A stretch of 64,000 nucleotides of DNA, from assembly GCF_032464895.1 (NCBI RefSeq), contig NZ_JAWDIC010000001.1, positions 2,232,001 through 2,296,000 on the forward strand, given 5' to 3'. The notes under the pieces are model-generated. The model did no database searches. It was not told the origin of the DNA and saw only the letters and a program-made list of their open reading frames with translations. Position 1 is the first letter of the stretch; the number at the start of each line of letters is the position of its first letter. Made by a program: the position numbers and the translations under genes. Shown here in pieces: positions 2 to 63,517 of the stretch. Source of the DNA: Phycicoccus sp. M110.8. Lineage in GTDB: Bacteria; Actinomycetota; Actinomycetes; Actinomycetales; Dermatophilaceae.

Positions 2-901
2 GAGCTCAACGGCTGCGACTGGGCGTTCGTCGAGGGCTCGATGCTCGATCCCGTTGCGGGACAACGGTTCGACCTCATCGTGAGCAACCCGCCCTTCGTC
101 ATCACCCCGCGCACCCCCGACGTCCCCCTGTTCGAGTACCGCGACGGGGGCCAGGCGGGCGACTCGCTCGTCGCCGACCTCGTGCGCTCGATCGGCGACC
201 ACCTGGCGCCCGGCGGCATCGCCCAGTTCCTCGGCAACTGGGAGGTCGTCGGCGACGCCGACTGGCGCGACCGCGTCCGCGGGTGGGTCGCCGGGTCCGG
301 CCTGGACGCGTGGGTGGTGCAGCGCGAGGTGCAGGACCCCGCGCAGTACGCCGAGACGTGGGCCCGCGACGGCGGCCACCACAGCGCCACGAGCGAGTTC
401 GCGACGATGTATGCCGCGTGGCTGGACGACTTCGCCTCGCGCGGCGTGAGCGCCATCGGGTTCGGCGTGATCACGCTCCAGCGGCCCACCGGTGACCGGG
501 AACCGTTCCTCGACCTGACCGAGGCCACCGGCCCGGTCGCGAGCCCGATGGGCCCGGCGGTCCTCGCCGGCCTGGCCGCACGCACCTGGCTGGCCGAGCA
601 CTCCGACGAGGAGCTGCTCGAGGTGGCGTGGCGCTGCGCCGACGACGTCACCGAGGAGCGGCACGGCCGTCCCGGTGACACCGACCCGACGGTGATCCTG
701 CTCCGGCAGGGTGGTGGCCTGGGGCGGGTCGTGCGCCTCGGTACGGCGGGCGCTGCGCTGGTCAGCGTGTGCGACGGGAGCCTCCCGGCCGGTGCGGCGG
801 TCGTCGCGATCGCCTCGCTCCTCGGCGTCGACGAGGCGCAGGTGCGGGTCGAGGTGCTGCCGTTGCTCAGGGCCCTGGTGGCCGACGGGCTGCTCGTCTG
901 A
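2..901 (+). CDS. Class I SAM-dependent methyltransferase, C-terminal part (5' end outside window)
   Basis: The frame is open from base 2 to the TGA at 899-901, so the start lies upstream of the window. The visible part contains an NPPF motif (S-N-P-P-F-V), the N-P-P-[FY] signature of amino-group methyltransferases acting on adenine or glutamine, followed by a Rossmann-like second half and a C-terminal domain with no motif I recognise. Actinobacterial proteins of this architecture are annotated as methyltransferases with flanking DUF7059/DUF7782-type domains; that assignment is from memory. The substrate cannot be read from the sequence. The SAM-binding GxGxG motif must lie in the missing N-terminal part. 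Confidence 0.8.
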   Translation, partial: ELNGCDWAFVEGSMLDPVAGQRFDLIVSNPPFVITPRTPDVPLFEYRDGGQAGDSLVADLVRSIGDHLAPGGIAQFLGNWEVVGDADWRDRVRGWVAGSGLDAWVVQREVQDPAQYAETWARDGGHHSATSEFATMYAAWLDDFASRGVSAIGFGVITLQRPTGDREPFLDLTEATGPVASPMGPAVLAGLAARTWLAEHSDEELLEVAWRCADDVTEERHGRPGDTDPTVILLRQGGGLGRVVRLGTAGAALVSVCDGSLPAGAAVVAIASLLGVDEAQVRVEVLPLLRALVADGLLV

Positions 902-1022
902 ACGCCCCCGGCGGGTGAGCGGGCCCGGCCGCCGGCTCCTCGTCCGACGGTCCCGGGCGAGTGAGCGCAGGAGCGCCAACTGCCCCTTGCGGTGGTGTTC
1001 GTGCAGGTCAGGAAAAGGTGTT

Positions 1023-1042
1023 GTGAGTGAGTGCTCACTCAC
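1023..1042. promoter_or_regulatory. Palindromic TetR-type operator
   Basis: GTGAGTGAG and CTCACTCAC form perfect 9-bp arms around a 2-bp centre, 35 to 54 bases before the ATG of the TetR gene. Position and size suit an autoregulatory operator that also controls the downstream ABC exporter genes. Confidence 0.75.
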
Positions 1043-1076
1043 TTACTCTGATCGGGTGTCTCCCCGCGCACCTGCC

Positions 1077-1733
1077 ATGGCCCCCGACGAGCGCCGCGCC
1101 GCGATCATCGCGACGACGGTGCCGCTGCTGCGCGAGCACGGGCCGGCGGTGAGCACCAAGCAGATCGCCCGCGCGGCCGGGGTCGCGGAGGGGACGATCT
1201 TCCGCGTCTTCGAGTCCAAGGAGGAGCTGGTCGACGCCTGCGTGCACGACGCGTTCCAGACCGAGAAGCTGGTCACCCGCGTGCTCGCCATCGACGACTC
1301 GCTGCCACTGCGGGAGCGCCTGGCCGAGGCCGTGTCGACGATGCAGGAGTACCTGCGCGGCATCTTCTCGCTGATGACCATGCTGCACTCGTCGGGGCAG
1401 CCGATGCGTCGACCGCACAAGGACCCCCGGCGCGAGCAGGCGAACGAGGCCCTCGATGCGGCCTTCGTCGCCCTCATCGGGGCCGACCGAGACCAGCTCC
1501 GGCTGCCGCCGCTCGAGGTCGTCAACTACCTGCGGATGATCACGCTGTCCAGCGTGCACCCGATGCTGCACCACCAGGGCTCATCGGCCCAGGAGATCGT
1601 CGACGTCATCCTCGAGGGCGCGCTCCGGCGGCCCGACACCACGGCGCAACGCTGCGCGTCCGCCACCGCCACGCGGCATACCGGCTCGTCGTCCGGTGCC
1701 ACCGCCACACCGTCCACCAGGGGGAAGAAGTAG
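1077..1733 (+). CDS. TetR/AcrR family transcriptional regulator
   Basis: A 218-residue one-component regulator. The N-terminal helix-turn-helix is visible as S-T-K-Q-I-A-R-A-A-G-V-A-E-G-T-I-F-R-V-F-E-S-K followed by E-E-L-V, typical of the family; the C-terminal ligand domain is divergent. An in-frame GTG at 1056 is an alternative start. The gene lies directly downstream of a perfect 20-bp palindrome and its TAG stop shares one base with the GTG of the first ABC exporter gene, so the three genes form an operon and the exporter is its probable target. The Ser/Thr-rich tail contains one copy of the CGGCATAC octamer at 1674-1681. Confidence 0.88.
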   Translation: MAPDERRAAIIATTVPLLREHGPAVSTKQIARAAGVAEGTIFRVFESKEELVDACVHDAFQTEKLVTRVLAIDDSLPLRERLAEAVSTMQEYLRGIFSLMTMLHSSGQPMRRPHKDPRREQANEALDAAFVALIGADRDQLRLPPLEVVNYLRMITLSSVHPMLHHQGSSAQEIVDVILEGALRRPDTTAQRCASATATRHTGSSSGATATPSTRGKK

Positions 1734-3546: not shown

Positions 3547-5582
3547 TGGCTGAGGGAGTCAAGACCGAGGAGGAGCGGGCCGCCGAGGCGCGCCGAGGGC
3601 CGGCGGCGCGCGCCGGGCAGCGGCACGGGCCCATGGCGGGTGTGGGCATGCCGGCGGAGAAGTCGCAGAACTTCGTCCCGTCCGCCAAGCGCCTGCTGTC
3701 CCTGCTGCGCCCCGAGCGCCACCGGCTGTATGCCGTGCTCGGGCTCGCGGTCGCGAGCGTCACGCTCAACGCCATCGGCCCCAAGATCCTGGGCCGCGCG
3801 ACCGACCTGATCTTCGCCGGGGTCATCGGGCAGCGGCTGCCTGCCACGGCGACCCGCGCGCAGGTGATCGAGGCGCTGCGTGCGCAGGGCAAGGGCACCT
3901 TCGCCGACATGGTCGCGCGCATGGACCACCTCGTCCCGGGCCAGGGCATCGACTTCGGCGCTGTGGGCCGCGTGCTGCTGGCCGTCCTGGCGATCTACGC
4001 CGTCGCGAGCCTGCTGTCGTGGGCGATGGGCTGGATCCTCATCGGCGCCGTGAACCGGACGATCTTCACGCTGCGCCGCGACGTCGAGGACAAGCTCAAC
4101 CGGCTGCCGCTGCCCTACTTCGACGCGCAGCCGCGTGGTGAGCTGCTCTCCCGCGTGACCAACGACATCGACAACGTCGCGCAGAGCATGCAGCAGACCC
4201 TGAGCCAGATGCTCACGTCGCTCCTGACGGTCGTCGCGATGATCGCGATGATGATCTACATCTCGCCGCTGCTGGCGGTGATCGCGCTCGTGACGATCCC
4301 CGTGACCATGGCCGTCACCGCTGCCATCGGCAAGCGCTCACAGAAGCACTTCGTCCAGCAGTGGAAGAGCACGGGCGAGCTCAACGGGATCGTCGAGGAG
4401 GCGTTCACCGGGCACCAGCTGGTCAAGGTCTTCGGCCGCCAGGACGAGGTGCGTGCGGCCTTCCGGGCCCGCAACGACGACCTCTTCGACGCCGGCTTCA
4501 GCGCCCAGTTCATCAGCGGCATCATCATGCCGACGATGATGTTCATCGGGAACCTCAACTACGTCGTCGTCGCGGTCGTCGGTGGCCTGCGGGTCGCGAG
4601 CGGGTCGATGAGCCTCGGTGACGTGCAGGCGTTCATCCAGTACTCGCGCCAGTTCACCCAGCCGCTGACGCAGGTCGCCTCCATGGCCAACCTGCTCCAG
4701 TCCGGTGTCGCGTCGGCCGAGCGGGTCTTCGAGGTGCTCGACGCCCCGGAGCAGCAGCCGGAGAGCGGGAGCCCGACCACGCTGGCGGCGGCGCACGGAC
4801 GGGTGGCCTTCGAGGACGTCTCCTTCTCGTACTCCGAGGACGCGCCCCTCATCGAGCACCTGGACCTCGTCGTCGAGCCGGGGCAGACGGTGGCCATCGT
4901 CGGCCCGACCGGCGCCGGCAAGACCACCCTGGTCAACCTCATCATGCGGTTCTACGAGCTCGACGCCGGCCGCATCACCCTCGACGGCGTCGACATCACC
5001 GAGCTCACCCGGCGCGGGCTGCGCAGCCAGATCGGCATGGTGCTCCAGGACACCTGGCTGTTCGGCGGGACGATCCGCGAGAACATCGCGTACGGCAACC
5101 CCGGCGCGACCGACGAGCAGGTGGTCGCGGCTGCGCGGGCGACGTACGTCGACCGGTTCGTGCACACGCTGCCCGACGGGTACGACACGGTGCTCGACGC
5201 CGAGGGGGGCAACATCAGCGCCGGCGAGAAGCAGCTCGTCACCATCGCCCGGGCGTTCCTCTCCGACCCGGCGCTGCTCATCCTCGACGAGGCGACCTCG
5301 TCGGTCGACACGCGCACCGAGCTCCTGGTCCAGCAGGCGATGGCCGCGCTGCGCCACGACCGCACGAGCTTCGTGATCGCGCACCGGCTCTCCACGATCC
5401 GCGACGCCGACGTCATCCTCGTGATGCGTGACGGCAGCATCGTCGAGCAGGGTTCGCACGAGGAGCTCCTCGAGCGCGGGGGCGCCTACGCCGAGCTGTA
5501 TGCCGCGCAGTTCAGCGGCGCGGCCGTGGACGTGGACACCGGCGAGGCCCCGGCCGCGGAGATGGCCACCGCCGGCAGCTGA
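3546..5582 (+). CDS. ABC exporter half-transporter, catalytic-site subunit
   Basis: A 678-residue exporter subunit with an N-terminal cytoplasmic extension of about 50 residues, six membrane helices with a long extracytoplasmic loop between the first two (residues about 85-145), and a C-terminal ATPase domain. Walker A is G-P-T-G-A-G-K-T-T near residue 451; Walker B L-I-L-D-E-A-T-S-S-V-D near 580 has the catalytic Glu. The signature is the unusual I-S-A-G-E-K-Q instead of LSGGQ. Together with the partner gene this gives one competent ATP site (this Walker B, partner signature) and one degenerate site, as in heterodimeric multidrug exporters. The ATG is preceded by a purine-rich gggaacggggg stretch. 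Confidence 0.92.
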   Translation: MAEGVKTEEERAAEARRGPAARAGQRHGPMAGVGMPAEKSQNFVPSAKRLLSLLRPERHRLYAVLGLAVASVTLNAIGPKILGRATDLIFAGVIGQRLPATATRAQVIEALRAQGKGTFADMVARMDHLVPGQGIDFGAVGRVLLAVLAIYAVASLLSWAMGWILIGAVNRTIFTLRRDVEDKLNRLPLPYFDAQPRGELLSRVTNDIDNVAQSMQQTLSQMLTSLLTVVAMIAMMIYISPLLAVIALVTIPVTMAVTAAIGKRSQKHFVQQWKSTGELNGIVEEAFTGHQLVKVFGRQDEVRAAFRARNDDLFDAGFSAQFISGIIMPTMMFIGNLNYVVVAVVGGLRVASGSMSLGDVQAFIQYSRQFTQPLTQVASMANLLQSGVASAERVFEVLDAPEQQPESGSPTTLAAAHGRVAFEDVSFSYSEDAPLIEHLDLVVEPGQTVAIVGPTGAGKTTLVNLIMRFYELDAGRITLDGVDITELTRRGLRSQIGMVLQDTWLFGGTIRENIAYGNPGATDEQVVAAARATYVDRFVHTLPDGYDTVLDAEGGNISAGEKQLVTIARAFLSDPALLILDEATSSVDTRTELLVQQAMAALRHDRTSFVIAHRLSTIRDADVILVMRDGSIVEQGSHEELLERGGAYAELYAAQFSGAAVDVDTGEAPAAEMATAGS

Positions 5583-5590
5583 CCCACCCT

Positions 5591-5629: not shown

Positions 5630-5741
5630 CGGCGTGCCGGACGCCCTCTGGGGTCCGCGCTCGCGGTGGTCGCTCCCCGGGTGCCGAACCACGGCATACC
5701 GCCTAGTTTGGGGACGTCCGTCCGTGCGCGAGGAGCCGCCG

Positions 5742-7896: not shown

Positions 7897-7929
7897 GTAT
7901 GCCGCGTGGACGTCGTCCACGCGGCATAC
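7897..7929. terminator. Bidirectional terminator built from two octamer copies
   Basis: A perfect 16-bp inverted repeat (GTATGCCGCGTGGACG and its complement) around one central T. It lies between the convergent symporter operon and the MFS gene. Each arm begins with one copy of the GTATGCCG octamer that is over-represented in the whole window. Confidence 0.8.
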
Positions 7930-10336: not shown

Positions 10337-11146
10337 TCAGGCGAACTGCCAGGAGCGCTTGCTCAGGCCGAACCAGAAGCCGTCGATGACGCTCTCGTTC
10401 TCCAGCGAGCCCGACTCGTAGGCCGCCCCGAGGCTGACGTACAGCGGCGCCCAGTGCTCGGTCCGAGGGTGCGCCTCCCGGGCCGCAGGGGCCTTGTGCA
10501 CGAAGTCGAGGATCGCGTCGACGTCCTGGCGCGCGAGCGCCTCGGCCGCCCAGTGGTCGAACTCGCTCGAGGCCGCCGGGGGCGTCCCGTCGGGGCCCCC
10601 GCCCGGGTTGAACCAGCGCAGGTTGTGGGTGGTGAATCCGGACCCGACGATGAGCGTGCCCTCGTCGCGGAGCGGGGCGAGCCGGCGCCCCAGGTCGAAC
10701 AGGGTCCGCGGGTCGAGGGTCGGCATCGACATCTGCAGCACCGGCACGTCGGCCTCGGGGTACATCTCGACGAGGGGCACGTAGGCGCCGTGGTCCAGGC
10801 CGCGCGTCTCGTCCCGGTGCACGGGGTTCTCGGTCGTGTGGACCAGCCGCTCCACCGACGCCGCGAGCTCCGGCGCGCCCGGCGCGGCATACGTCACCTC
10901 GTAGTAGTGCCGCGGGAAGCCCCAGAAGTCGTAGACGAGCGGGACGTCGCCGGAGGTCGCGGACAGCGAGAGCGGCGCCTCCTCCCAGTGCGCCGACACC
11001 ATGAGGATGTTGGCCGGCTTGCCGAACCGGCCCGACCAGTCGGCGAGCTGGCGGGTCCACACCGGGTCGTCCGCGAGCGGAGGGGCGCCGTGGCTGAGGT
11101 ACAGGACCGGCTGGCGCTCCGGCGTCGACCCCGTCGAGGTGCTCAT
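10337..11146 (-). CDS. Class III extradiol dioxygenase, LigB/DODA family
   Basis: A 269-residue non-heme metal enzyme of the 4,5-DOPA dioxygenase type. Probable metal or active-site histidines lie in Y-L-S-H-G-A-P, V-S-A-H-W-E, H-G-A-Y-V-P-L and G-S-G-F-T-T-H-N-L. Bacterial members (YgiD-like) cleave catechols or act as quinol-protective enzymes; the physiological substrate is unknown. ATG 11146 is chosen over an in-frame start 12 codons upstream because a -35/-10 pair ends six bases before it, which predicts a leaderless mRNA. Confidence 0.85.
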   Translation of the reverse strand: MSTSTGSTPERQPVLYLSHGAPPLADDPVWTRQLADWSGRFGKPANILMVSAHWEEAPLSLSATSGDVPLVYDFWGFPRHYYEVTYAAPGAPELAASVERLVHTTENPVHRDETRGLDHGAYVPLVEMYPEADVPVLQMSMPTLDPRTLFDLGRRLAPLRDEGTLIVGSGFTTHNLRWFNPGGGPDGTPPAASSEFDHWAAEALARQDVDAILDFVHKAPAAREAHPRTEHWAPLYVSLGAAYESGSLENESVIDGFWFGLSKRSWQFA

Positions 11147-11182: not shown

Positions 11183-11328
11183 CTACTGGTATGCCGATGC
11201 GGCGGCACAGCGCGGACGGCGAGACCGCCACCAGCCGACTTGACCGCCTCGGCTACCGTCTCTTGCGTTGCCATGTCCACGCAGCGACGAATCCGCTGCA
11301 CATGGGAGCAGGACGGCAGGTTGGATCT

Positions 11329-14115
<2,787 letters not shown>

Positions 14116-14185: not shown

Positions 14186-15556
14186 ATGACGCCTTCCCTC
14201 GACCCTTCCACCAGCCGGCAGCTGTCGCTGCGCCTCGCCAAAGAGCAGTCGCAGCAACGGCTTCCGTCGGTCGCCGCTGCGCTGGTGCGCGACGGTGAGG
14301 TCGTCTGGTCCGGTGCCGTGGGCACGCTCGACGGCCGCAGCGGTGGGGAGCCGGCCGGCACCGGCACGCAGTACCGCATCGGCTCGATCACCAAGACCTT
14401 CGTGGCGGTCGAGGTGATGCGGCTGCGCGACGAGGGCCGGCTCGACCTGTCCGACACGGTCGTCGCGCTGCTGCCCGAGGTGGAGGGGTCGGACTTCGCC
14501 GGCGTGACCGTCGCCCAGCTCCTGTCGCACAGCTCGGGCCTGCAGGCCGAGACCAGCGGGCCGTGGTGGGAGCGCACCGCGGGCGACGACTGGGCGGCGC
14601 TGCTCGCCAGCCGGCCGACGCTTCGGTTCCGCCCCGGTGCCCGCTTCCACTACTCCAACGTCGGGTATGCCGTCCTCGGCGAGGTCGCTGCGCGGCTGCG
14701 CGGGGTGCCGTGGCACGACGCCGTGCGCACCTCGCTGCTCGAGCCGCTCGGCATGACCCGGACGACCACGCGCCCGCAGGCACCCGCGGCCCCGGGCTGG
14801 GGCGTCCACCCGCTCGCGGACCTGCTCCACGTCGAGCCCGAGCACGACGCGGGAGCGATGGCCCCGGCCGGCCAGCTGTGGTCCACAGCGGAGGACCTCT
14901 CGCGCTGGGCCGCCTTCCTCGCCGGCCGCACCGAGGGGCTGCTCGACCCCGCGACCCTCGAGGAGATGTGCCTGCCGATCGTGGTCAACGACAGCCCCGG
15001 CCAGGCGTGGACCGCCGCGCACGGGCTCGGCTGGCAGGTGTGGAACCTCGAGGGCCGCCGGTATGCCGGCCACGGCGGCTCGATGCCCGGCTTCCTGGCG
15101 TCGCTGCGGGTCGACCGCGAGAGCGGCGACGGCTGCGTGCTGTTCGCCAACGCCACCTCCGGGATGTCGCCCGCGCTGTCGCAGGACCTGCTCACCCTGC
15201 TCTCCGAGCGGGAGCCGGTCGCGCCGACGCCGTGGTCGGCCGACGCCTCCCAGGTGGACGGCCTCGAGCTGGTGGGCGACTGGTACTGGGGCACGACGGC
15301 ATACACGCTGCGGCTCGCGGACGACGGGCACCTGGTCCTCGGGGAGCCGGGGGTGCACCGCGGGTCGCGGTTCCGTCCCCTCGGGGCCGGCTGGGTCGGG
15401 CTCGACGGGTACCACGAGGGCGAGCCGCTGGTGGCGGTGCGGGACGCGCAGGGCCGGATCGGGCACCTCGACCTGGGCTCGTTCCGGTTCACCCGGACCC
15501 CGTACGACCCGGCCGCCGACGTGCCCGGTGACGTGCACCCCGACCGCTGGCACTGA
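14186..15556 (+). CDS. Serine hydrolase, class C beta-lactamase/penicillin-binding-like family
   Basis: A 456-residue protein with the three active-site motifs of the family: S-I-T-K (SxxK) in I-G-S-I-T-K-T-F, Y-S-N (YxN) in F-H-Y-S-N-V-G-Y, and H-G-G-S-M-P-G in the position of the third motif. A C-terminal beta-rich domain of about 110 residues follows. No signal peptide is visible, which argues for an esterase or peptidase acting in the cytoplasm rather than a periplasmic beta-lactamase. It starts 62 bp after topA and may be read from the same transcript. Confidence 0.85.
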   Translation: MTPSLDPSTSRQLSLRLAKEQSQQRLPSVAAALVRDGEVVWSGAVGTLDGRSGGEPAGTGTQYRIGSITKTFVAVEVMRLRDEGRLDLSDTVVALLPEVEGSDFAGVTVAQLLSHSSGLQAETSGPWWERTAGDDWAALLASRPTLRFRPGARFHYSNVGYAVLGEVAARLRGVPWHDAVRTSLLEPLGMTRTTTRPQAPAAPGWGVHPLADLLHVEPEHDAGAMAPAGQLWSTAEDLSRWAAFLAGRTEGLLDPATLEEMCLPIVVNDSPGQAWTAAHGLGWQVWNLEGRRYAGHGGSMPGFLASLRVDRESGDGCVLFANATSGMSPALSQDLLTLLSEREPVAPTPWSADASQVDGLELVGDWYWGTTAYTLRLADDGHLVLGEPGVHRGSRFRPLGAGWVGLDGYHEGEPLVAVRDAQGRIGHLDLGSFRFTRTPYDPAADVPGDVHPDRWH

Positions 15557-46393: not shown

Positions 46394-46477
46394 GTGCGCG
46401 GAGCGTTCTGGGCGTATGCCGTGTTCATCGCGGCCGGTCTGGCCTTCTTCTTCGTGATCGGGGGGCTGGGCCGGTGA
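46394..46477 (+). CDS. 27-residue single-helix membrane microprotein
   Basis: GTG start one base after the lipoprotein stop; the stop overlaps the next start as GTGA. The peptide is M-R-G-A-F-W-A-Y-A-V-F-I-A-A-G-L-A-F followed by F-F-V-I-G-G-L-G-R, that is, one hydrophobic helix with a basic residue at each end. Tight coupling to the DUF6766 gene suggests a small partner subunit. Confidence 0.6.
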   Translation: MRGAFWAYAVFIAAGLAFFFVIGGLGR

Positions 46478-49841: not shown

Positions 49842-50543
49842 ATGAGTCGATTCGTCCCGGCGCCAGAGCACGACCTGGCCCGGTACTTCGCAGAGCTCGT
49901 GCACGCCGTCCAGGCCGAGGGCGGCCGACTGGGCACCCTGCAGACGGTGTGCGAGCTGGCGGTCACGATCATCCGCGCCGACCACGCGTCCATCACGGTG
50001 CGCCGCGGCGACCTCTTCAGCACGCTCGCCACCACCGGTGAGCTGCCCGAGACCGTGGACCGCATCCAGGGGGAGACGGGTGAGGGCCCCTGCATCGACG
50101 GGCTGCTCGACCACGAGTCCTTCGCCACCGGTGACCTGGGGAGCGACGGCCGGTGGCCGCTGTTCGCGGGGCGCGTCGCCGCCGAGACGGGGGTTCGGAG
50201 CATGCTGTCGCACCGGCTGTTCGTGCGGGAGGGGAGCGTGGGGGCGCTCAACGTGTATGCCGCTCGCCCCGACGCCTTCACGCCCGGGGACGTGCTGGTG
50301 TCGGAGGTCTTCGCCGCGCACGCCGCGATCGCGGTCCAGGCGGCCGAGGACCAGCAGCGCGCGGACAACCTCGAGATCGCGCTGCGCAGCAGCCGCCGCA
50401 TCGGCACGGCCATCGGCATCGTCATGGCCAGCCACCGCCTCGACGAGCAGTCCGCCTTCGAGCTGCTGCGCCGTCGCAGCCAGGACACCAACCGCAAGCT
50501 GGCCGACATCGCCGACGACGTCGTCTACACCGGACAGCTCTGA
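49842..50543 (+). CDS. GAF-ANTAR regulator 2
   Basis: A 233-residue paralogue of the preceding gene with the same layout: GAF (G-E-T-G-E-G-P-C-I-D-G, E-T-G-V-R-S-M-L-S-H) then ANTAR (L-R-S-S-R-R-I-G-T-A-I-G-I-V-M-A ... A-F-E-L-L-R-R-R-S-Q-D-T-N-R-K-L). The pair may form heterodimers. CGGAGAA precedes the ATG. Target RNA hairpins are not evident in the flanking leaders. Confidence 0.9.
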   Translation: MSRFVPAPEHDLARYFAELVHAVQAEGGRLGTLQTVCELAVTIIRADHASITVRRGDLFSTLATTGELPETVDRIQGETGEGPCIDGLLDHESFATGDLGSDGRWPLFAGRVAAETGVRSMLSHRLFVREGSVGALNVYAARPDAFTPGDVLVSEVFAAHAAIAVQAAEDQQRADNLEIALRSSRRIGTAIGIVMASHRLDEQSAFELLRRRSQDTNRKLADIADDVVYTGQL

Positions 50544-51145: not shown

Positions 51146-53497
51146 GTGAGCGCACGACTGGCCGTGGCCGGCGACCCCGTGGCGGACCCGGCGGCGGTGG
51201 TCACGGGCGACCGGTGGCGGGTGACCGTCCTGACACCCGGCCTGCTGCGGCTGGAGTGGTCGGAGTCCGGCCGGTTCGAGGACCGCGCCAGCGTGTTCGC
51301 CGTCAACCGGCGCCTGCCCGTGCCCGAGGTCGAGGTCCGGCGCCACGACGGCCGGCTCGAGCTCACCACCGAGTGCCTGCACCTCGACTACGACGGGCAG
51401 CCCTTCAGCCCGAGCGGGCTGCTCGTGACGGTCGTCGGCCCGGTCGACCACCCCCACACCCAGCAGTGGCGGTTCGGGGAGCCGGTCGACGACCTCGGCG
51501 GTACCGCGCGCACGCTCGACGACGTCGACGGTGCCGTGCCGCTCGGGCCCGGCGTGGTCTCCCGCACCGGCATCGCCGTGCTCGACGACTCGACGTCGTT
51601 CCTCCTCGAGGACGGTCGCGCGGTGCCGCGCCCGGAGGGCTCGCTCGACCTGTACGTCTTCGTCCGTGGCCACGACTACCGCGCCGCCGTGCGCGACCTG
51701 TACGCCGTGTCCGGCCCGATACCGATGCTGCCGCGGTGGGCGCTGGGCAACTGGTGGTCGCGCTACCACCCCTACTCGGCGCAGGAGTACCTCGACCTGC
51801 TCGACACCTTCGACACCGAGCAGGTGCCGCTCTCGGTGGCGGTCCTCGACATGGACTGGCACCTCGTCGACGTCGACCCGAGGTTCGGCACCGGCTGGAC
51901 CGGCTACACCTGGAACCGCAAGCTCTTCCCGGACCCACCGGCATTCCTCGCCGAGCTCCACCGTCGCGGCCTGGCGGTGACCCTCAACGTGCACCCGGCC
52001 GACGGCGTGCGGGCCTTCGAGGACGCCTACCCGGACATGGCGCGGGCGATGGGGATCGACCCCGACACGGAGCAGACCGTCGCGTTCGACCCGACCGACC
52101 CCCGCTTCATGGACGCCTACTTCGAGGTGCTGCACCACCCGCTCGAGGACGAGGGCGTCGACTTCTGGTGGCTGGACTGGCAGCAGGGCTCGTTCAGCCG
52201 CACCGCCGGGGTTGACCCGCTGTGGGTGCTCAACCTCGAGCACTTCAACGACTCGGCCCGCCGCGGCCGGCTGCCGATCACGTTCTCCCGGTACGCCGGC
52301 CCCGGCAGCCACCGCTACCCGGTCGGCTTCTCCGGCGACACGCACATCACGTGGGACTCCCTCGCCTTCCAGCCGTACTTCACCAGCACCGCCTCGAACA
52401 TCGGCTACGGCTGGTGGAGCCACGACATCGGCGGCCACTGGTACGGCAGCCGCGACGACGACCTCACCGTGCGGTGGGTGCAGCTCGGCGTCTTCTCCCC
52501 GGTCATGCGGCTGCACTCGACGCTGCACCCCTTCATCCGCAAGGAGCCCTGGACCTTCCCGGCGCAGGCGCGCGACACCATCGACGCGTTCCTGCGGTTG
52601 CGGCACCGGCTCGTGCCCTACCTGCACACCATGAACGCGCGGGCCGCCCGCGACGGCGCGCCGCTCGTCGAGCCGATGTACTGGGAGGACCCGCAGGCCC
52701 CCGAGGCGTATGCCGTGCCCACCCAGTTCCGCTTCGGCACCGAGCTCGTCGTGGCGCCGGTGACGGGCCCGCAGCAGGACGTCCTCGGGCTGGGTAGCAC
52801 CCTCGCGTGGCTGCCCGAGGGGGAGTGGACCGACCTGTTCACGGGAGCCGCCTACCGCGGCGGACGCCAGGTCCGGCTGCACCGCCCGCTCGAGACCCTG
52901 CCGGTGCTGCTGCGCGCCGGTGGGCTGCTGCCCCTCGCCGGCACCGCCGACGCGGCGGTCGGCACGGGGCTGCCCGAGCACGTGGAGGTCGTCCTGGCCC
53001 CCGGCGCGGACGGTCGCTTCGACCTCGTGGAGGACGACGGCAGCACCGAGCCCCGGACCGCCGTCACGACGATCACCTGGGACGACGAGGGCGGCACCCT
53101 CGTCGTCGCGGGCCCGTCCGGCGACACCGACGTTCTGCCGGCCCGGCGCAGCTGGAGCCTGCTGGTCCTCGGGTGCGACGCCGGTGCGAGGCGCGACGGG
53201 GAGGCACTGCCGGCCGAGGCGACCGGGGCCGGCACGCGCATCGAGCTCGGCGTGACGACCGGTGACGGCCTCACGGTGCAGGTCGCGGACCTGCGGCAGT
53301 TCGGGTGGGACCGCACGGTGGAGCAGGTCCGCGCCGTCCTGGACCGCGCCCGGATCGAGTACAACACCAAGCGCGCGGCGTTCGAGCTCGTGCAGGCGGC
53401 CGAGGGAGCGGCGCAGGCGGCCGCCGGGCTGCGCGGCCTCGAGCTCGACCGCGAGGTCGAGGGCGCCGTGCTGGAGCTGCTGCTCGCCCGCTGGTGA
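51146..53497 (+). CDS. Glycoside hydrolase family 31 alpha-glycosidase
   Basis: A 783-residue enzyme with an N-terminal beta-sandwich, a (beta/alpha)8 barrel and C-terminal beta domains, as in GH31. The catalytic nucleophile is Asp344 in W-W-L-D-W-Q and the acid/base Asp398 in F-S-G-D-T-H-I-T-W. It should hydrolyse alpha-glucosides or alpha-xylosides; the exact sugar is not predictable from motifs. No signal peptide, so it acts inside the cell. GTG 51146 is preferred to GTG 51140 because of spacing to GAAGGA. No sugar transporter is nearby. Confidence 0.93.
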   Translation: MSARLAVAGDPVADPAAVVTGDRWRVTVLTPGLLRLEWSESGRFEDRASVFAVNRRLPVPEVEVRRHDGRLELTTECLHLDYDGQPFSPSGLLVTVVGPVDHPHTQQWRFGEPVDDLGGTARTLDDVDGAVPLGPGVVSRTGIAVLDDSTSFLLEDGRAVPRPEGSLDLYVFVRGHDYRAAVRDLYAVSGPIPMLPRWALGNWWSRYHPYSAQEYLDLLDTFDTEQVPLSVAVLDMDWHLVDVDPRFGTGWTGYTWNRKLFPDPPAFLAELHRRGLAVTLNVHPADGVRAFEDAYPDMARAMGIDPDTEQTVAFDPTDPRFMDAYFEVLHHPLEDEGVDFWWLDWQQGSFSRTAGVDPLWVLNLEHFNDSARRGRLPITFSRYAGPGSHRYPVGFSGDTHITWDSLAFQPYFTSTASNIGYGWWSHDIGGHWYGSRDDDLTVRWVQLGVFSPVMRLHSTLHPFIRKEPWTFPAQARDTIDAFLRLRHRLVPYLHTMNARAARDGAPLVEPMYWEDPQAPEAYAVPTQFRFGTELVVAPVTGPQQDVLGLGSTLAWLPEGEWTDLFTGAAYRGGRQVRLHRPLETLPVLLRAGGLLPLAGTADAAVGTGLPEHVEVVLAPGADGRFDLVEDDGSTEPRTAVTTITWDDEGGTLVVAGPSGDTDVLPARRSWSLLVLGCDAGARRDGEALPAEATGAGTRIELGVTTGDGLTVQVADLRQFGWDRTVEQVRAVLDRARIEYNTKRAAFELVQAAEGAAQAAAGLRGLELDREVEGAVLELLLARW

Positions 53498-53523: not shown

Positions 53524-54429
53524 TCAGCCGGCGACCACGGCCCGGGGTCCCATCACCACGACGGGGTGCAGGCCGGGGTCGAGACGGCGCAGGAGCAGCT
53601 GCAACCCCGCCTTCGGCACCGAGACGCAGCCGTGGGTCGGTCCGTTGTGGTCCAGGTGCAGCCAGATGCCGCCGCCGCGTCCCTCGCCGAGGGGGCGCTC
53701 GCGGTCCAGCGGTGAGCGCCCGGCCACCCGGTTGTAGTCGATCGCGATGACGTGGTCGAACGCGTCCGCGGCGGAGTCGCCGAAGCCCGGACCCGACTCG
53801 GGAGCGCGGAACAGGCTGGAGCGGTGATAGGGCAGCCTGGCGGACGGGGCGGCGAGGCGGCCCCCGGCGTCACTGAGGCGGTACACCCCGACGGGAGTAC
53901 GCAGGTCGCCCTCGACGTGCCGCTCGGACCAGCCCGACCGGCCCACGTGCCCGGGCCAGGAGGCCACCCGCGTCCACCCGGTGCTGCCGGCCTCGTACAA
54001 CGTCACCCGGGCCGTGCTGCTGTCGGCGCCGGCCCCGGCCACCAGGACGACCTGACGGGTGCCCGCCGGGACCTGTCGCGCCATCGCCGCCGAGAGCGGG
54101 AGTTCCGCGGCCGCGGCGGCCGGTGGCGTGACCGCCCCCGTCGACGGGGTGGGGGACGGTATGGCAGAGGCCGCCTCGGAGTCGCCCGCGCCGTCGTGGC
54201 CGGCTCGTGCGCCGCCGGCGGGGGAGGGGGAAGCCGGTCCGTGCCCCGGCGCGGACACCGCAGCCTCCCGGCCGCCGCCGTCGTGCCGGTCCGCCAGCAC
54301 GGCACCCACCCCCACGAGGGTGGTGAGGGCGAGCGCGAGGTGCTGCTGGCGCCGTCGTCGCCGCAGGCGTCGCGTGAACCGCACGCTGCGGCTCTCGCCG
54401 CCGGACTCCGGACGGTCCGTGCGCGGCAT
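53524..54429 (-). CDS. Membrane-anchored L,D-transpeptidase-like (YkuD) protein
   Basis: A 301-residue protein: Arg-rich cytoplasmic start, one membrane helix at about residues 28-46, a Pro/Ala/Ser linker to about 110 and a catalytic domain ending with G-I-W-L-H-L-D-H-N-G-P-T-H-G-C-V-S. The H...(S/T)HGC pattern is the active site of YkuD-like transpeptidases, which cross-link peptidoglycan. A TAGGAT -10 ends six bases before the ATG, so the mRNA is probably leaderless; the ATG lies in a GTATGCCG octamer. Confidence 0.85.
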   Translation of the reverse strand: MPRTDRPESGGESRSVRFTRRLRRRRRQQHLALALTTLVGVGAVLADRHDGGGREAAVSAPGHGPASPSPAGGARAGHDGAGDSEAASAIPSPTPSTGAVTPPAAAAAELPLSAAMARQVPAGTRQVVLVAGAGADSSTARVTLYEAGSTGWTRVASWPGHVGRSGWSERHVEGDLRTPVGVYRLSDAGGRLAAPSARLPYHRSSLFRAPESGPGFGDSAADAFDHVIAIDYNRVAGRSPLDRERPLGEGRGGGIWLHLDHNGPTHGCVSVPKAGLQLLLRRLDPGLHPVVVMGPRAVVAG

Positions 54430-54491
54430 ACGCCCATCCTAGGGGCGCGTGGCGCGCCGACCGGACGGCGTCGAGCAGGACGCGGGCAGGC

Positions 54492-55284: not shown

Positions 55285-58200
55285 GTGTCCAGACTGAAGT
55301 CGGCGGCCGGCCGTGTCTCCCCCGGCTGGTCGTTCGGTCACTGGCCGCTGCGGCGCAAGCTCGCCGCTGCGCTGGCACTGCCCGTGATCCTCGCCTTCGT
55401 CTTCGGTGGCCTGCGGGTCAAGACCGACTTCGACGCCGCCCGCTCGCTCACCCGAGCCGCCGACACGGTCCTGGTCCTGCGACCCATCGTGGACTACAAC
55501 CTCGCGGTCCAGCACCTCGCCGCCGCCGACGCGATCGGCGGTGGCGGTGAGATCGCCGCCATCACCAAGTACGAGTCGGCCGCGGCGAACCTGCGCATCG
55601 CCATCAAGTCGCCCAGCGTCCCCGAGGCCGTGAAGGAGCAGGCCGAGTCCGCCCTGGCCCTCGGTGCCTCCGTGCGGTCGGCCAAGACCCAGCAGAGCTT
55701 CTCGGGCGTCATCATCGACAAGTCGGGCAGCACCGCGACCCTGCTCTCCAGCGCCGTGAGCAACCTCGGGCTCGCCGACGACTCCGGCTCCGCCAAGATC
55801 GTCGCCAACCTGCAGGACGCGATCTCGGCCCAGCGCGCCATGACCGCCCAGCAGCTCAACCTGGCGAACTCCGACGACGCCAGCTCCAAGCTGCGCGCGC
55901 TCGGCTCGGTCGGCGCCGAGACCGCGGCCCTCACCCGGCTCGTCTCCAACGCGCCGGCGGACGAGGGCACGGCAGTCCGCCAGCTCCTCAACGAGAACGG
56001 CCGTCGCTACTACGCGCTGCAGCAGGACTCCCTCGACAAGGCCGCGGTCGCCCAGCTCGGTACCGTCATCGAGCGGAGCAACAGCGGGTACTCCGACCTC
56101 GCGGACGCCCAGCTCACCAACCTCGAGACCACGCTGCGTGACCGGGCTGCGAGCCACCAGCGGGACGCGCTCGTCAACGCCGGCCTCATCGGGATCGCCC
56201 TGCTGGCCGCCCTCGTCATCGTCATCGGCCTGCTCCGCTCGCTGCTGACGCCCATCCGCGCCGTCCGTTCGGGCGCCCTCGACATCGCCAACAAGCGCCT
56301 GCCCGCGGCGGTCGCCGCCATGCGCGACGGCGAGGAGCCCCCGGCATTCGAGCCGATCCCCGTCACCACCCGCGAGGAGATGGGCCAGCTGGCCCGCGCG
56401 GTCGACGACCTGCACAGCCAGGCCCTCGCGCTCGCCGGTGAGCAGGCCCGCCTGCGGGTGCAGGTCGGGCACATGTTCGAGACGCTCTCGCGCCGCAGCA
56501 CCTCGCTCATCGACCAGCAGCTCACCCTCATCGAGCGCCTCGAGAGCGACGAGGAGGACCCCAAGCGCCTCCAGAGCCTGTTCCGCCTCGACCACCTCGC
56601 GGCCCGCATGCGCCGCAACTCCGACTCCCTGCTCGTGCTCGCAGGCACGTCGACCCGTCGTGGCGTCTCGGGTGCCATCGCGGTCTCCGACGCCGTCCGC
56701 GCGGCCGTGTCCGAGGTCGAGAACTACGAGCGCATCGACATCGGCGACACCTCCAACGACAAGGTCCTCGGCGCCGTCGGCTCCGACCTCATCCACCTCG
56801 TGGCCGAGGTCGTCGACAACGCCCTGGCCTACTCCCCGCCCACGACCCGTGTGGCGATCCGTGGTGCCCGCACGCCCGAGGGTGGCCTGCTCATCGAGGT
56901 GAGCGACCACGGCCTGGGTATGCCGCCCAAGGAGCTGGCGGCGCTCAACGACCGCCTCGCCAACGGTGGCGACATCACCGCCGACACCGCCCGCCGGATG
57001 GGCCTGTTCGTGGTCGGCAGCCTGGCCAAGCGCCACGGCATCGCCGTCCGCCTGCGCCGCAACGGCGAGGACAAGATGGGCATCACCGTCTCGGTCCACC
57101 TGCCCGCCGGACTGCTCGCGGACAGCTCGACCCTGGAGCGGCAGCCGCGTCCGGTCGCCAAGGCGGCGCCGAGCCCGGCGCCGGTCGAGGCCGCCCCGGC
57201 AGCCCCGGTCCAGCCCGCCGTCGGCGGCACCACCAAGTCCGGCCTGCCCACGCGGGTCCGCGGTGCGAGCGGTGCGCCGAGCCTCCCCGGCCCGAGCCCG
57301 GTGCCCGGCGCGGCGAAGAAGGTCCTGCCGACCCGCACCCCGGGTGCGCACGGGCCCAACGCGTCCACCGCCCTGCCCGCTCCGGTCAAGCCCGTCATCG
57401 AGGGTGCCGAGCCGCCGGCCGACAAGGCAGCGGCCAACGGCTCCGCCGCCAACGGTTCGGCCGCCAACGGTTCGGCGGCCCACGGTGCCGAGACCAACGG
57501 CGCGCAGCCGAACGGCTCCGCGGTCAACGGGCACGCCGCCGTCGACGGGTCGGGTGGCAACGGCGCCGACGCCAACGGCCGCGCCGCCGGCGACACCGCC
57601 GAGGGCGAGTCCACGCCGCAGGCCGCACCAGTCGACGGTGCCGAGGCCCAGCAGGCCCCGGCCGCCGACGCGACGCCCGAGCAGCCCGCCCAGGAGGCCC
57701 CCAAGCTCTCGCCGTCGGGCCTGCCGGTCCGTCGTTCGGGCGCCACCGGCATCACCGCCTTCCGCGAGTTCGAGGACGCGCCCTCCGTGGCGCCCGAGGG
57801 CGAGCAGGACTCCCCGGCCACGCCGTCGGCCGCCCCGAGCGCCGCCAAGGGCTCGCGCCTCATGAGCTGGCTCCCGGGCCGGGCGAAGGCCCAGGCCGAG
57901 GCCGCCCGGCTCGAGGCCGAGGCCAACGAGCCGCGCCAGATGCCGTCGAACCTGTCGGCCTGGCTCGACCACCGGGCCAAGCTCGTCGAGGCCGCGCAGG
58001 CCCGCGAGGCGGCCACCTCCGAGGACACCGTCGAGGACGGCGCCGACACCGGTGCAGCCACGGGCGGAGCCCCCGAGGCGGCGGCCATGCCCGAGGCGCC
58101 GGCTGCGGCCGTCGAGGGTCCGGAGACCACCGACATGACGGTGCCCGAGGAGTGGGTCGCCGAGGCCCTCGCCGACGAGCAGGTCGCCGAGCTCGTCACG

Positions 58201-59563: not shown

Positions 59564-59567
59564 TGCG

Positions 59568-60607: not shown

Positions 60608-62227
60608 TCAGGTGGGCCGCAGCACCGGCGCGAGCCGCCCGAGGTCGTCGGGCGTGGCGAGGTCGGGCAGTGCCACGAAGACGGTGTCCACGCCCTCCTC
60701 GGCCAGCTGCCGGTAGCGCTCGGCGTGGCTCGCGGGCTCCCCGGCGTGGTGCGTGCGGGCGTATGCCGCGGCGGCCGTCCGCCCGCGCAGCCGCTCCACC
60801 CTGCGCCAGGTGTCCTCGCGGTCCCGCCCGACGACGGGGACGTCCAGCACGGTGACGGCCACCTCGGCCGGGTCGCGGCCCACCTCCGCGCAGTGGCGGC
60901 GCAGGACCTCGACCTTGCGGCGCACGGTCGCCGGGTCGCTCGACACGTTGCACGCGTCCCCGATGCGGGCTGCCACCCGCAGGGTGCGCCGCTCGCCACC
61001 GCCACCCACGACGACCGGCAGCGGCCCGACCGGCCGGGGGTAGGCCGTGGTCTCCGGCAGCGAGACCCGGTGCCCGGCATACGCCCTCGTGCCGCTGGCC
61101 CACAGCGCCCGCATCGTCTCGATGCCGTCCTCGAGCAGGTCGAGGCGCGCGGGGGCGGGAGGGAAGGGGACGCCGAAGCCGAGGTGCTCGCGCTCCCACC
61201 ACCCCGCGCCCACCCCGACGAACGCCCGGCCCCCGCTGAGCACGTCGAGGGTGGCCGCCGCCTTGGCGAGGACACCGGCGGGGCGGAAGGTCATGGGGGA
61301 CACCAGGGTCCCGAGCCGCAGAGAGGTGTCCAGGCCGGCGAGCAACCCGAGCGTGACCCACGGCTCGGGGATCGGCTCCCAGGCCCGGTCGACCTGCGGG
61401 ACCTGCACGAGGTGGTCCATGAGTGCCAGCCCCGCGAAGCCCGCCTCGTCGGCGGCCAGCGCCACCCCGCGCAACCACCCCACCGGGTCCTGTCCCCACG
61501 GGAAGCGTGAGACCTGCAGGACGAGCTCGGGCAGCCCCGCAGCCCCCGGGCGCCGGTCGTCCCTGGCGCCGCGGTGCCAGGCCGAGGCCGGTGCCGCGCC
61601 CACCACGGGGCGGGCGGTGCGTCCGCCGGCGGCCTCGCCGGCTACCTCGCCGGCGACCGCGGCCGCGGCACCCGACCCGGGCGCGGCACCGGTCGCGGTT
61701 GGGGCACCGGCCTCGGGCGTGGCACCGGCCCCGGGCGGGGCGCCGGGGGTGGAGCCGTCGACGTGGAGCACGACGTCCCAGCCCTCCCCGGCGACGTCCT
61801 GGACGACCCGCGGCATCCGGGCCAGCTGCTGGCCGAGGACGTTCGCCGGCACCGGGCGGTCGCGCCGGGCGTTGCGCTCCCGGCACAAGGCACCCGCGGT
61901 GTCGAGGACGACGGCGACGCAGGGCAGCCCGGCCGCGCGCCCCATCTCGCGGTACCGGTCGCGGGTGTCCGGGTCGAGCCCGAGGGTGTCGACGACGACC
62001 GTGAGCCCACGACGGCTGCGGGCCGCCACGACCTGGTGGAGCACGGCGAAGGCGTCCGCCGAGGCGTCGAGGTCGAACTCGCCGCTGCCGACCACGGCGC
62101 GCAGGGCGTCCGAGGACACCACCTCGGGGCGCCGGTAGTGCGCGGCCGCCCAGGTCGACTTGCCCGAGCCGGTCGGGCCGACGAGGACGACCAGGGCCGG
62201 GTCGGGGAGCCCCGCGGGCCCGGTCAG
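60608..62227 (-). CDS. P-loop kinase domain fused to F420-dependent LLM-class oxidoreductase
   Basis: The frame encodes G-P-T-G-S-G-K-S-T at codons 17-25, a polynucleotide-kinase-like P-loop domain to about residue 160, an Ala/Pro/Gly linker and a luciferase-like monooxygenase barrel (V-S-R-F-P-W-G, E-A-G-F-A-G-L-A-L-M-D-H, W-W-E-R-E-H-L-G-F-G). No ATG, GTG or TTG exists in frame before the P-loop. CTG 62227 sits in a CTGA overlap with the VOC stop and has AAGGGG upstream, so I take it as start; GTG 62122 would delete the P-loop. Length 539 residues. Last gene of a leftward three-gene operon. Confidence 0.8.
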   Translation of the reverse strand: MTGPAGLPDPALVVLVGPTGSGKSTWAAAHYRRPEVVSSDALRAVVGSGEFDLDASADAFAVLHQVVAARSRRGLTVVVDTLGLDPDTRDRYREMGRAAGLPCVAVVLDTAGALCRERNARRDRPVPANVLGQQLARMPRVVQDVAGEGWDVVLHVDGSTPGAPPGAGATPEAGAPTATGAAPGSGAAAAVAGEVAGEAAGGRTARPVVGAAPASAWHRGARDDRRPGAAGLPELVLQVSRFPWGQDPVGWLRGVALAADEAGFAGLALMDHLVQVPQVDRAWEPIPEPWVTLGLLAGLDTSLRLGTLVSPMTFRPAGVLAKAAATLDVLSGGRAFVGVGAGWWEREHLGFGVPFPPAPARLDLLEDGIETMRALWASGTRAYAGHRVSLPETTAYPRPVGPLPVVVGGGGERRTLRVAARIGDACNVSSDPATVRRKVEVLRRHCAEVGRDPAEVAVTVLDVPVVGRDREDTWRRVERLRGRTAAAAYARTHHAGEPASHAERYRQLAEEGVDTVFVALPDLATPDDLGRLAPVLRPT

Positions 62228-62613
62228 CCCTGCCCCTTCGGGCGGGTGCCGACGAGGCCGACCAGGTTGCCCTCGCTGTCCCGGACGAACGCCATCTCCT
62301 CGTCGGTGTCGGCCGGCCCGAGGGTGTCGTCGTCGTGGCTGAAGATGACGTGCGGCTCGCCCTCCACCGGCACGCCGTCGGCGCGCAGCCGCTCGACGGC
62401 CGACCGGACGTCCTCGACCCGCACGTAGATCAGCGCCGACGGGGCACCGGCCTCCAGCAGCAGCCGGGTGCCGTCGCCGAGGGAGAAGAACAGCAGCCCG
62501 GGCGGGTCGAAGCGGGCGAGGGGAGGGCTGCCGAGCAGGCGCTCGTAGAACGCGGCCGCGCGGTCGAGGTCCGTGGCGCGCTGGGCCACCTGCGCGAGCT
62601 TCGGGTCAGGCAT
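62224..62613 (-). CDS. VOC (glyoxalase/dioxygenase fold) family protein
   Basis: A 129-residue protein with the paired beta-alpha-beta-beta-beta units of the VOC fold: L-D-R-A-A-A-F-Y-E-R-L-L-G near the start and F-V-R-D-S-E-G-N-L-V-G-L near the end, the latter with a conserved metal-ligand Glu in many members. Substrate unknown. It overlaps the upstream hydrolase gene by eight bases and the downstream fusion gene by CTGA. Confidence 0.85.
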   Translation of the reverse strand: MPDPKLAQVAQRATDLDRAAAFYERLLGSPPLARFDPPGLLFFSLGDGTRLLLEAGAPSALIYVRVEDVRSAVERLRADGVPVEGEPHVIFSHDDDTLGPADTDEEMAFVRDSEGNLVGLVGTRPKGQG

Positions 62614-63517
62614 CCTGCGGAGCACCTCCTGCTCGCGAGAGTACCGCCGCGGCGACCTCCTGCGCCCGGGTCTCGGGCAGCCAGTGGCCGGCGTCGAGCT
62701 CGACGAACCGGTAGTCCGACGCCACCCAGTCGCCACTGGCCTCAGCGGCTCGCCGGCCCAGCGCCGGGTCGTGCGAGCCCCACAGGTACGTCGTCGGCAC
62801 GGTGATCCGGTGGCCGCCGAGGCCTGGGTCGGGCACTTCCGCCCGGTCGCGGGATGCCTTGCGGCGCAACGGGTTCGGCAGGCCGGACAGGGTCGAGGCC
62901 CCGAGCGGCAGGGCGCGGTACCAGGCCAGGCCCCCACCGGCGGCGCCCGGCTCGCGGAAGCGCGCGGCATACCTGCGCGCGTCCTCCGGCGGCAGGCCGC
63001 TGCGCCTCAGCACCCCCTCCAGCCGGCCGGCGAGCACCAGCTCGGGCAGCACCGGCAGCTGGAACGCGGCCATGTACCAGCTGTGCGAGGCCTGGTCGAG
63101 GTGGCGCAGCGCGGCGGCGAACGCCCGGTGGTGCGGCGTCGACAGGACGGTGAGCGACGCGAACCGCTCCGGGTGCCGCTCGGCCGCCGCCCACGCGACC
63201 GCACCGCCCCAGTCGTGCCCCACCAGGTGCACCCGCTGGACCCCGCACGCGTCGACCGCTGCGACGACGTCGGCCACGAGCTCGCCCATCCGGTATGCCG
63301 CACGGCCGCGCGGGCGGGCGCGCGGGGAGTACCCGCGCTGGTCGAACGCCACGACGCGCAGGCCGCCGGCCGTGAGCAGCGGGGTCACCCGCGACCAGGC
63401 GTGGCGGTCCTGCGGCCACCCGTGAAGCAGCAGCGCGACCGGTGGGTCGGCCGCCCCGTCGTCGGGGCCGTCGTCGCTGACGTCGAAGGTCAGCCCGTTC
63501 CTGCTGAGCTCGCGCAT
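62606..63517 (-). CDS. Epoxide-hydrolase-like alpha/beta hydrolase
   Basis: A 303-residue enzyme. H-G-W-P-Q (HGxP oxyanion motif) near residue 33 and the nucleophile elbow V-G-H-D-W-G-G with Asp, rather than Ser, point to the epoxide hydrolase/haloalkane dehalogenase branch; the C-terminal His is in D-A-G-H-W-L. Substrate unknown. First gene of the leftward operon; together with an F420-type oxidoreductase and a VOC protein this could be a small detoxification pathway, which is an inference. Confidence 0.87.
   Translation of the reverse strand: MRELSRNGLTFDVSDDGPDDGAADPPVALLLHGWPQDRHAWSRVTPLLTAGGLRVVAFDQRGYSPRARPRGRAAYRMGELVADVVAAVDACGVQRVHLVGHDWGGAVAWAAAERHPERFASLTVLSTPHHRAFAAALRHLDQASHSWYMAAFQLPVLPELVLAGRLEGVLRRSGLPPEDARRYAARFREPGAAGGGLAWYRALPLGASTLSGLPNPLRRKASRDRAEVPDPGLGGHRITVPTTYLWGSHDPALGRRAAEASGDWVASDYRFVELDAGHWLPETRAQEVAAAVLSRAGGAPQDA

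Follow-up and report, generated by a model that had tools for sequence, protein, structure and literature searches.

A densely repeated octamer of Phycicoccus sp. M110.8 and its dialects: a candidate self-recognition word for natural transformation in an actinobacterial family

The 64,000-nucleotide stretch of Phycicoccus sp. M110.8 analysed here (G000:C1:2232001-2296000, hereafter the window) harbors 42 exact copies of the octamer GTATGCCG, 22 on the plus strand and 20 on the minus strand, spanning positions 409-63300. The word is kept in genes against codon preference, is arranged in this genome as a separate array on each DNA strand, and in parts of the family gives way to other words (dialects), namely GGATGCCG and GTACGCCG, each one base from GTATGCCG, and CGAAGGGRG. 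On the genomic tests, GTATGCCG appears to work like the DNA uptake sequence (DUS) of Neisseriaceae. It is probably a self-recognition word for natural transformation that resembles DUS and the uptake signal sequence (USS) of Pasteurellaceae, arose separately from both, and would act together with ComEA/ComEC and Flp pili.

Abundance and coding context of the octamer

In 100 dinucleotide-preserving shuffles of the window, GTATGCCG occurred 0.74 times on average and three times at most. An order-3 Markov model gives an expectation of 1.96, close to the two copies estimated in a preliminary description that had drawn attention to the octamer, and the z of GTATGCCG tops those of all octamers in the window. 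In the whole genome (4,117,279 bases), 1,234 copies were counted on one strand and 1,242 on the other (2,476 in total, one per 1.66 kb), so that the strand balance described for the window extends to the chromosome; the same word read backwards, taken as a control, gave 135 copies (74 + 61). Within 464 kb of the genome, 288 copies were found vs 2.0 expected from a word-masked order-3 model (144-fold) and 7.0 from an order-4 model (41-fold). Enrichment far above chance, on both strands and chromosome-wide, of a non-palindromic word is of the type known for DUS and USS.

In the same 464 kb, all of the 24 one-letter variants of GTATGCCG together occurred 312 times vs 201–269 expected, and some of them were raised, including GGATGCCG (80 vs 36–55 expected) and GTATGCCA (11 vs about 1). 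GTATGCCG is thus a sharp word, though near copies of it exist. The signal extends past the octamer. The preceding base is A in 1 of 287 copies of the M110.8 genome (A is found there in 5% of copies in sister species and about 8% in other genera), the first base on the 3' side is C or T in 201/287 copies and the second is G in 194/287, which gives an extended core of about BGTATGCCG-Y-G.

Coding status in the window and in the 464 kb was taken from a crude gene call of our own. In total, 33 of the 42 window copies are coding. The Tyr-Ala or Ala-Tyr reading given in the preliminary description applies to 26 of them (TAT-GCC in 17, GCA-TAC in nine), while the remaining seven lie in other frames, e.g., Gly-Met-Pro. 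Both codons are otherwise rare, as had been noted: outside GTATGCCG, TAT accounts for 35 of 2,140 Tyr codons (1.6%) and GCA for 971 of all 18,056 Ala codons in the 464 kb. In the context xxG-Tyr-GCC-Gxx, Tyr is encoded by TAT in 119 of 144 codons, and 119 of all 154 TAT codons sit inside the word. The density of GTATGCCG is 0.59 per kb in called coding DNA vs 0.73 per kb outside, in line with the described mixture of coding and intergenic sites. The DNA word is kept, not the peptide, and codon choice is overridden. Codon-pair preference does not explain the enrichment, because TAT is used in 119/144 codons inside the word context vs 35/2,140 outside it.

The copies in the window, with positions, strand and setting, are as follows.

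409..416, plus, copy in the frame Met-Tyr-Ala-Ala
1674..1681, minus, copy
3728..3735, plus, copy read as Tyr-Ala
5498..5505, plus, copy read as Tyr-Ala
5692..5699, minus, copy read as Ala-Tyr on the gene
7897..7929, both strands (7897-7904 plus, 7922-7929 minus), inverted pair located between two genes that appear to converge, folding into a hairpin whose stem is 15 bp long (-29.7 kcal/mol, z -5.9)
10885..10892, minus, copy
11189..11196, plus, copy overlapping the start of the open reading frame (ORF) at 11191
12668..12675, minus, copy
14665..14672, plus, copy
15061..15068, plus, copy
15297..15304, minus, copy
18541..18548, plus, copy, intergenic or at a gene edge (crude gene call)
19738..19745, minus, copy, intergenic or at a gene edge (crude gene call)
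21021..21028, plus, copy
22848..22855, minus, copy
24390..24397, plus, copy
24501..24508, minus, copy between the ORF ending at 24444 and the ORF starting at 24551
25731..25738, plus, copy identical in 10/10 aligned sister species
27042..27049, plus, copy
27791..27798, minus, copy
28692..28699, plus, copy
31142..31149, plus, copy in the frame Gly-Met-Pro
33885..33892, minus, copy
36308..36315, plus, copy
37084..37091, minus, copy
38981..38988, minus, copy
43353..43360, plus, copy
45949..45956, minus, copy, inverted pair with the copy at 45980 (weak hairpin, z of the pair -1.9)
45980..45987, plus, copy, inverted pair with the copy at 45949 (weak hairpin, z of the pair -1.9)
46414..46421, plus, copy, intergenic or at a gene edge (crude gene call)
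48341..48348, minus, copy
48676..48683, minus, copy
50255..50262, plus, copy
52708..52715, plus, copy
54424..54431, minus, copy, intergenic or at a gene edge (crude gene call)
56918..56925, plus, copy
60761..60768, plus, copy
61075..61082, minus, copy
62965..62972, minus, copy
63293..63300, plus, copy

Paired copies had been described as lying in terminators; this holds for the strong hairpin at 7897-7929 and weakly for the pair at 45949-45987.

Strand-resolved spacing

In the first 464 kb examined of the M110.8 genome, 86 of 267 pairs of adjacent GTATGCCG copies share a strand (z −5.8). The result was then tested on another 400 kb, where 72 of 270 pairs did so (z −7.7), and the pooled 864 kb gave 160 of 541 (z −9.5). 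The frequency of same-strand pairs relative to random is 0.12 at distances below 100 bp, 0.16 at 250–500 bp, 0.48 at 500–750 bp and 0.74 at 1.5–1.75 kb, and reaches about 1 at larger distances, whereas opposite-strand pairs stay at 0.8–1.4 of random at all distances. The coefficient of variation (CV) of same-strand gaps is 0.70, vs random values of 0.92 and 1.00 for the two sets of DNA. Among 318 other octamers with 300–900 copies, the lowest z was −3.7 and the lowest CV 0.89, and none came near GTATGCCG. Opposite neighbours are convergent and divergent about equally often (89 and 92).

Each strand of this genome bears its own array: up to about 1.7 kb from a given copy, another one is redundant if it is on that copy's strand, but not if it is on the opposite strand. 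This strand-resolved spacing is a new structure, which goes beyond what the preliminary description had observed. Since copies repel on the same strand only, drive seems to act on a single strand, over a length of roughly 1 kb. A like tendency was seen in other genomes: same-strand neighbours numbered 68/206 in sister species and 52/138 in CGAAGGGRG genomes, where orthologous stretches are not independent, and 24/64 in GGATGCCG genomes. A strand bias relative to oriC/ter had been proposed as a check; no strand imbalance of GTATGCCG was found over 21 stretches of the genome (chi-square 8.4, df 21; the origin was not located).

Conservation, dialects and distribution

To the window, 16–33 kb from each of ten sister species (78–82% identity) was aligned, and the com locus was added for seven of them. 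In six word-rich species, the GTATGCCG sites of M110.8 were identical in 15/25 (G072), 18/22 (G143), 8/14 (G433), 19/26 (G124), 19/26 (G137) and 10/15 (G434) cases, i.e., in 89/128 when pooled, vs 29–36% for octamers of the same composition. Four of these species carry 1,934–3,986 copies in the whole genome; G433 and G434 were counted in 40 kb only (21 and 29 copies). In the other four species, whose copy numbers are lower (625–1,468), identical sites numbered 7/15 (G115), 4/16 (G032), 9/24 (G098) and 6/20 (G131), and the pooled value of 26/75 is near the control (25–32%). G032, G098 and G115 form one clade in a tree of ComEC and LeuS in which G131 was not included. The conservation in orthologous genes suggested as a check is therefore above control in the word-rich species and near control in the poorer ones. 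Because of this difference relative to the controls, the force keeping the sites seems to be active in some species and relaxed in others. In G115 and G131, GTACGCCG is raised (865 and 1,011) and GTATGCCG lowered (625 and 836), possibly in the middle of a dialect switch, with the caveat that the background of GTACGCCG elsewhere is up to 870.

Among 149 genomes of the family (53 genera), whose GTDB name we take to be Dermatophilaceae, GTATGCCG is present in at least 600 copies in 81, in 200–599 copies in 11 and in fewer than 200 copies in 57. Named relatives identified by a ComEC scan have 3,225 copies (Humibacillus xanthopallidus DSM 21776), 1,660 (Arsenicicoccus bolidensis DSM 15745; both Intrasporangiaceae per NCBI), 66 (Intrasporangium flavum) and 35 (an uncultured Phycicoccus). 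None of 273 genomes from 19 other families of the order has at least 600 copies; the maximum is 177 (reversed control there, 135), and the remaining genomes have at most a few times the reversed control. In 68 ComEC loci of 5–23 kb taken as outside the family (Streptomyces and others), zero to two copies each were found. Within the order as sampled, high GTATGCCG counts are confined to one family.

The dialects were sought by k-mer scans of 40–60 kb each from 20 low-count genomes, and the words were then counted in the 149 family genomes. CGAAGGGRG reaches 1,452–2,412 copies in 11/11 genomes of genera g37 and g38 and 23–127 in the other 138. GGATGCCG is found 2,099–4,480 times in seven genomes (g17, g27, g44) and 241–1,336 times in the remainder. 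GTACGCCG, the dialect with the least clear edge, is present in 1,125–4,185 copies in ten genomes (three of g40, two of g48, two of g3 and one each of g24, g25 and g26), in 785 copies in the third g48 genome and in 39–1,011 copies elsewhere. Two genomes, G044 and G079, carry two words together, with about 1,200 GTATGCCG and 2,100–2,200 GGATGCCG. With thresholds set by us, a dialect is present in 107 of the 149 genomes, which leaves 42 without one; six of these 42, the third g48 genome (G105) among them, have 293–404 GTATGCCG copies, and 36 have none of the three other words and fewer than 200 GTATGCCG. Another word was looked for in 12 of these 36 genomes, with no clear find. The k-mer scans gave nothing convincing in G083, G084, G057, G058, G088, G061, G062, G028, G041, G045, G049, G125 and G019, with faint words in G057 and G019.

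The ComEC plus LeuS tree includes seven of the 11 CGAAGGGRG genomes, and these make up a single clade (support, 98) that is embedded among GTATGCCG lineages. This quick tree has 44 rows, five of them less than half filled, with G095 dropped, dialect labels assigned by us from the counts and the metagenome-assembled genome BP171 falling among the outgroup rows. Such lineage-specific dialects are also of the DUS/USS type.

Other repeats came to light in the family. In genus g38 (L147-L150, L129-L130), the palindrome AAGTACTT has 16 counts over both strands (eight places) vs 0.5 in 80 kb, and CCTTAAGGAGATGCG-like repeats occur six times vs 0.0 expected in 40 kb. CTCGACCGGC was found 14 times vs 0.8 in 40 kb of G019 (L173-L174), possibly as a dispersed repeat or weak dialect. 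The heptamer TCGCCGA is among the most over-represented in many of the scanned family genomes, with or without dialect words.

Uptake machinery, candidate readers and competing explanations

The M110.8 genome has open frames for ComEC (785 aa) and ComEA (SLBB + HHH) and, at G000:C1:649-656 kb, a Flp cluster with two Flp pilins, RcpC/CpaB, a ParA/MinD-type ATPase assigned to TadZ by position, TadA and a vWA + T2SSF protein. Of the com and pil genes that the preliminary description had advised looking for, com genes and a Flp pilus cluster are thus present, in keeping with a host of uptake words, though ComEC and secretion ATPases also occur in non-carriers. According to the sections of PMC4322843 used here, tad (Flp pilus) genes are required for transformation in the actinobacterium Micrococcus luteus.

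Foreign-looking DNA is without GTATGCCG. Directly upstream of the window, 28,950 bases hold one copy vs 18.0 expected (P 3e-7), with borders set by us after the tadA remnant had been seen. This word-poor stretch ends in a TniB/TniQ-type element and a tadA remnant that matches residues 279–373 of the sister-species TadA (385 aa), the remainder of which was not found in the stretches searched. The TniB/TniQ/transposase-like element, with a DUF6414 gene, occupies positions 2078-9285 of L198 (G000:C1:2212001-2232000), at the expected front of tadA. This Tad cluster adjoins an MrfA/HRQ1-like helicase, and the L198 + L197 stretch has a GC content of 0.68 and is nearly word-free. Scarcity in a transposon-bearing stretch and one-base-variant dialects, observed here directly like the word itself, its conservation, its strand-resolved spacing and the com and flp genes, are further genomic signatures of the DUS/USS type.

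Several candidates were rejected as correlates of the word. PilM (PF11104), the marker of a canonical type IV pilus, occurs in 5/149 family members and was not found in M110.8 and 143 others; this speaks against such a pilus, on which a receptor of the ComP type would sit (no search was aimed at ComP). A carrier-only Tad-cluster gene was looked for in 20 loci (17 from 16 carriers and three from non-carriers), where nothing consistent was seen, a weak result obtained with crude gene calls. ComEA length gave no clean split between dialect groups: it is 262–298 aa in seven CGAAGGGRG genomes, 321–395 aa in 13 of 14 GTATGCCG genomes (272 aa in G011) and 274–424 aa in genomes without a dialect. RecBCD was rejected as a general reader because RecC (PF04257) was not found in M110.8 or in 57 of the 81 GTATGCCG-rich genomes and is present in 23/42 non-carriers (vs 37/107 carriers). 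RecC is patchy inside the family (60/149 genomes; 1/9 in the genus of the window).

In the explanation we favor, that of a transformation word, word-bearing DNA would be bound at the cell surface by a receptor, probably ComEA or a component of the Flp (Tad) pilus, ComEA/ComEC would import this DNA, and imported conspecific DNA would recombine into the chromosome. Word-bearing alleles would be taken up more often, and the word would accumulate where genes tolerate it (molecular drive). A change in receptor specificity would change the word and give rise to the dialects GGATGCCG, GTACGCCG and CGAAGGGRG, and copies would decay where specificity was lost. If the recognised or processed molecule is single-stranded, drive would act on each strand by itself, with no gain from having two copies on one strand of about 1 kb. 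The receptor, the uptake, the drive and the single-strand reading are the parts that we infer; drive by biased uptake would explain why sites persist in free positions, decay after loss of specificity and are absent from new DNA.

A number of results weigh against this explanation. ComEC is found in 145/149 family members and T2SSE-type (type II/IV secretion) ATPases, for which 12 candidates were scored in each genome, in 148/149. Both are shared by carriers and non-carriers and therefore fail as correlates, and no gene was found whose presence separates the two groups. One Tad cluster of M110.8 keeps only the end of tadA, beside a transposon. Same-strand repulsion was not significant in other GTATGCCG genera (58/133, z −1.5) and was not seen for the GTACGCCG dialect (56/118, z −0.6), and in M110.8 a polar recombination signal would be expected to give strand-resolved spacing as well. 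The pooled excess of one-letter variants is small, although drive models predict decay products. A plain double-strand receptor would leave same-strand repulsion without explanation, since uptake in Haemophilus influenzae is independent of USS orientation, according to the parts of PMC1939737 used here. The DUS/USS reading of the preliminary description is thus supported in part. The features found are a high density balanced between the strands, copies both within and between genes, codon override, conservation in orthologues, a hairpin pair and dialects; no receptor was found, and ComEC and secretion ATPases do not distinguish carriers.

A recombination signal like Chi of Escherichia coli (GCTGGTGG) is an unlikely alternative, in which a directional helicase-nuclease of AdnAB, AddAB or RecBCD type would read the octamer on one strand and switch from degradation to recombination. 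Each strand would then need its own array, and dialects would follow changes of the reading subunit. Chi is likewise an asymmetric octamer, and polar recognition would fit the strand-wise arrays, as would the low tolerance of variants and the presence of RecC in 11/11 CGAAGGGRG genomes. However, RecC is distributed as described above (AdnAB and AddAB were not searched for), and the 41- to 144-fold enrichment against codon usage exceeds that of Chi. Chi sites of E. coli are concentrated on the leading strand, whereas no strand imbalance was found here over the 21 stretches (origin not located). That lack of imbalance also argues against a chromosome-segregation site, as KOPS-like sites would skew along replichores. 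A segregation or nucleoid-organising site, read by an abundant DNA-binding protein, agrees with the even spacing per strand and with sites both within and between genes, but is improbable: same-strand-only repulsion is left unaccounted for by an architectural protein without polarity, and 36 family members have no dialect and few GTATGCCG copies, with no clear alternative word seen in the 12 of them that were scanned.

Similarly doubtful, and if anything a little more so, is a methylation-linked word of the HIP1 type, which an orphan methyltransferase together with a repair system would create or maintain. An asymmetric octamer is an unusual methyltransferase site, and same-strand repulsion has no reason in a methylation model. 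As described in the sections of PMC4390886 used here, cyanobacterial HIP1 is also a dense octamer that is replaced in some lineages by alternates tracking methyltransferases, but HIP words are palindromic and methyltransferase-linked, whereas all four words here are asymmetric; HIP proper was rejected because GTATGCCG is not a palindrome. Mutation or codon-pair bias without function could account for the Tyr-Ala or Ala-Tyr reading of most coding copies, but is refuted for practical purposes by the rarity of TAT outside the word (1.6% of Tyr codons), by the higher density outside called coding DNA (0.73 vs 0.59 per kb) and by the finding that 0/318 other octamers come near the alternation or evenness of GTATGCCG.

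To our knowledge, self-recognition signals for uptake are known in two bacterial families. GTATGCCG shares ATGCCG with the meningococcal DUS, which we take to be chance. Inverted pairs acting as hairpins are a feature of DUS as well. According to the sections of PMC3630211 used here, the Neisseriaceae DUS has dialects that all contain a CTG core, one genome with two dialects at once and relatives with none. The Neisseriaceae word thus appears to be the closest behavioural match of a short non-palindromic word with hundreds to thousands of copies, single-base dialects, two-dialect genomes and word-less relatives. It differs in that the present host belongs to Actinomycetota, that none of the four words found here contains the CTG core, on which ground DUS proper was rejected, and that M110.8 has no PilM-type type IV pilus marker. 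No report of strand-autonomous spacing for DUS was found in those sections. The Pasteurellaceae USS, with 1,471 copies in H. influenzae, is likewise dense, evenly spaced and free of chromosome-scale orientation bias (PMC1939737, sections used here), but has another sequence, a core longer than that of GTATGCCG and orientation-independent uptake. Literature searches for such words in actinobacteria yielded no report, and a paper search on the letters of GTATGCCG gave nothing on the subject among the matches listed (both judged by title).

Should these words prove to serve in uptake, self-specific transformation would have evolved once more, in actinobacteria. A bolder form of this idea is possible and is offered tentatively: a third independent origin of uptake words, in actinobacteria with Flp pili, with a word read on one strand and arranged in a regular array per strand because uptake or processing works on single-stranded pieces of about 1 kb, and with at least four dialects, two of them one base from the main word, acting as mating barriers within one family. 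Relatives with different or no dialects, including several named strains, would provide natural replicates, and the old question of whether such words originate by mechanism (drive) or by mate choice would become testable within the family. The strand-wise repulsion supplies a length scale, about 1 kb, as well as a prediction on the processing of single strands. Even if the reader proves to be intracellular, a polar word with four dialects at such density would be a new kind of genome signal.

Two further words stand out in the window, possibly as another repeat family: AAGGGACGTGC, with six copies vs 0.04 expected, and CGCTCGATGACG, with five vs 0.16.

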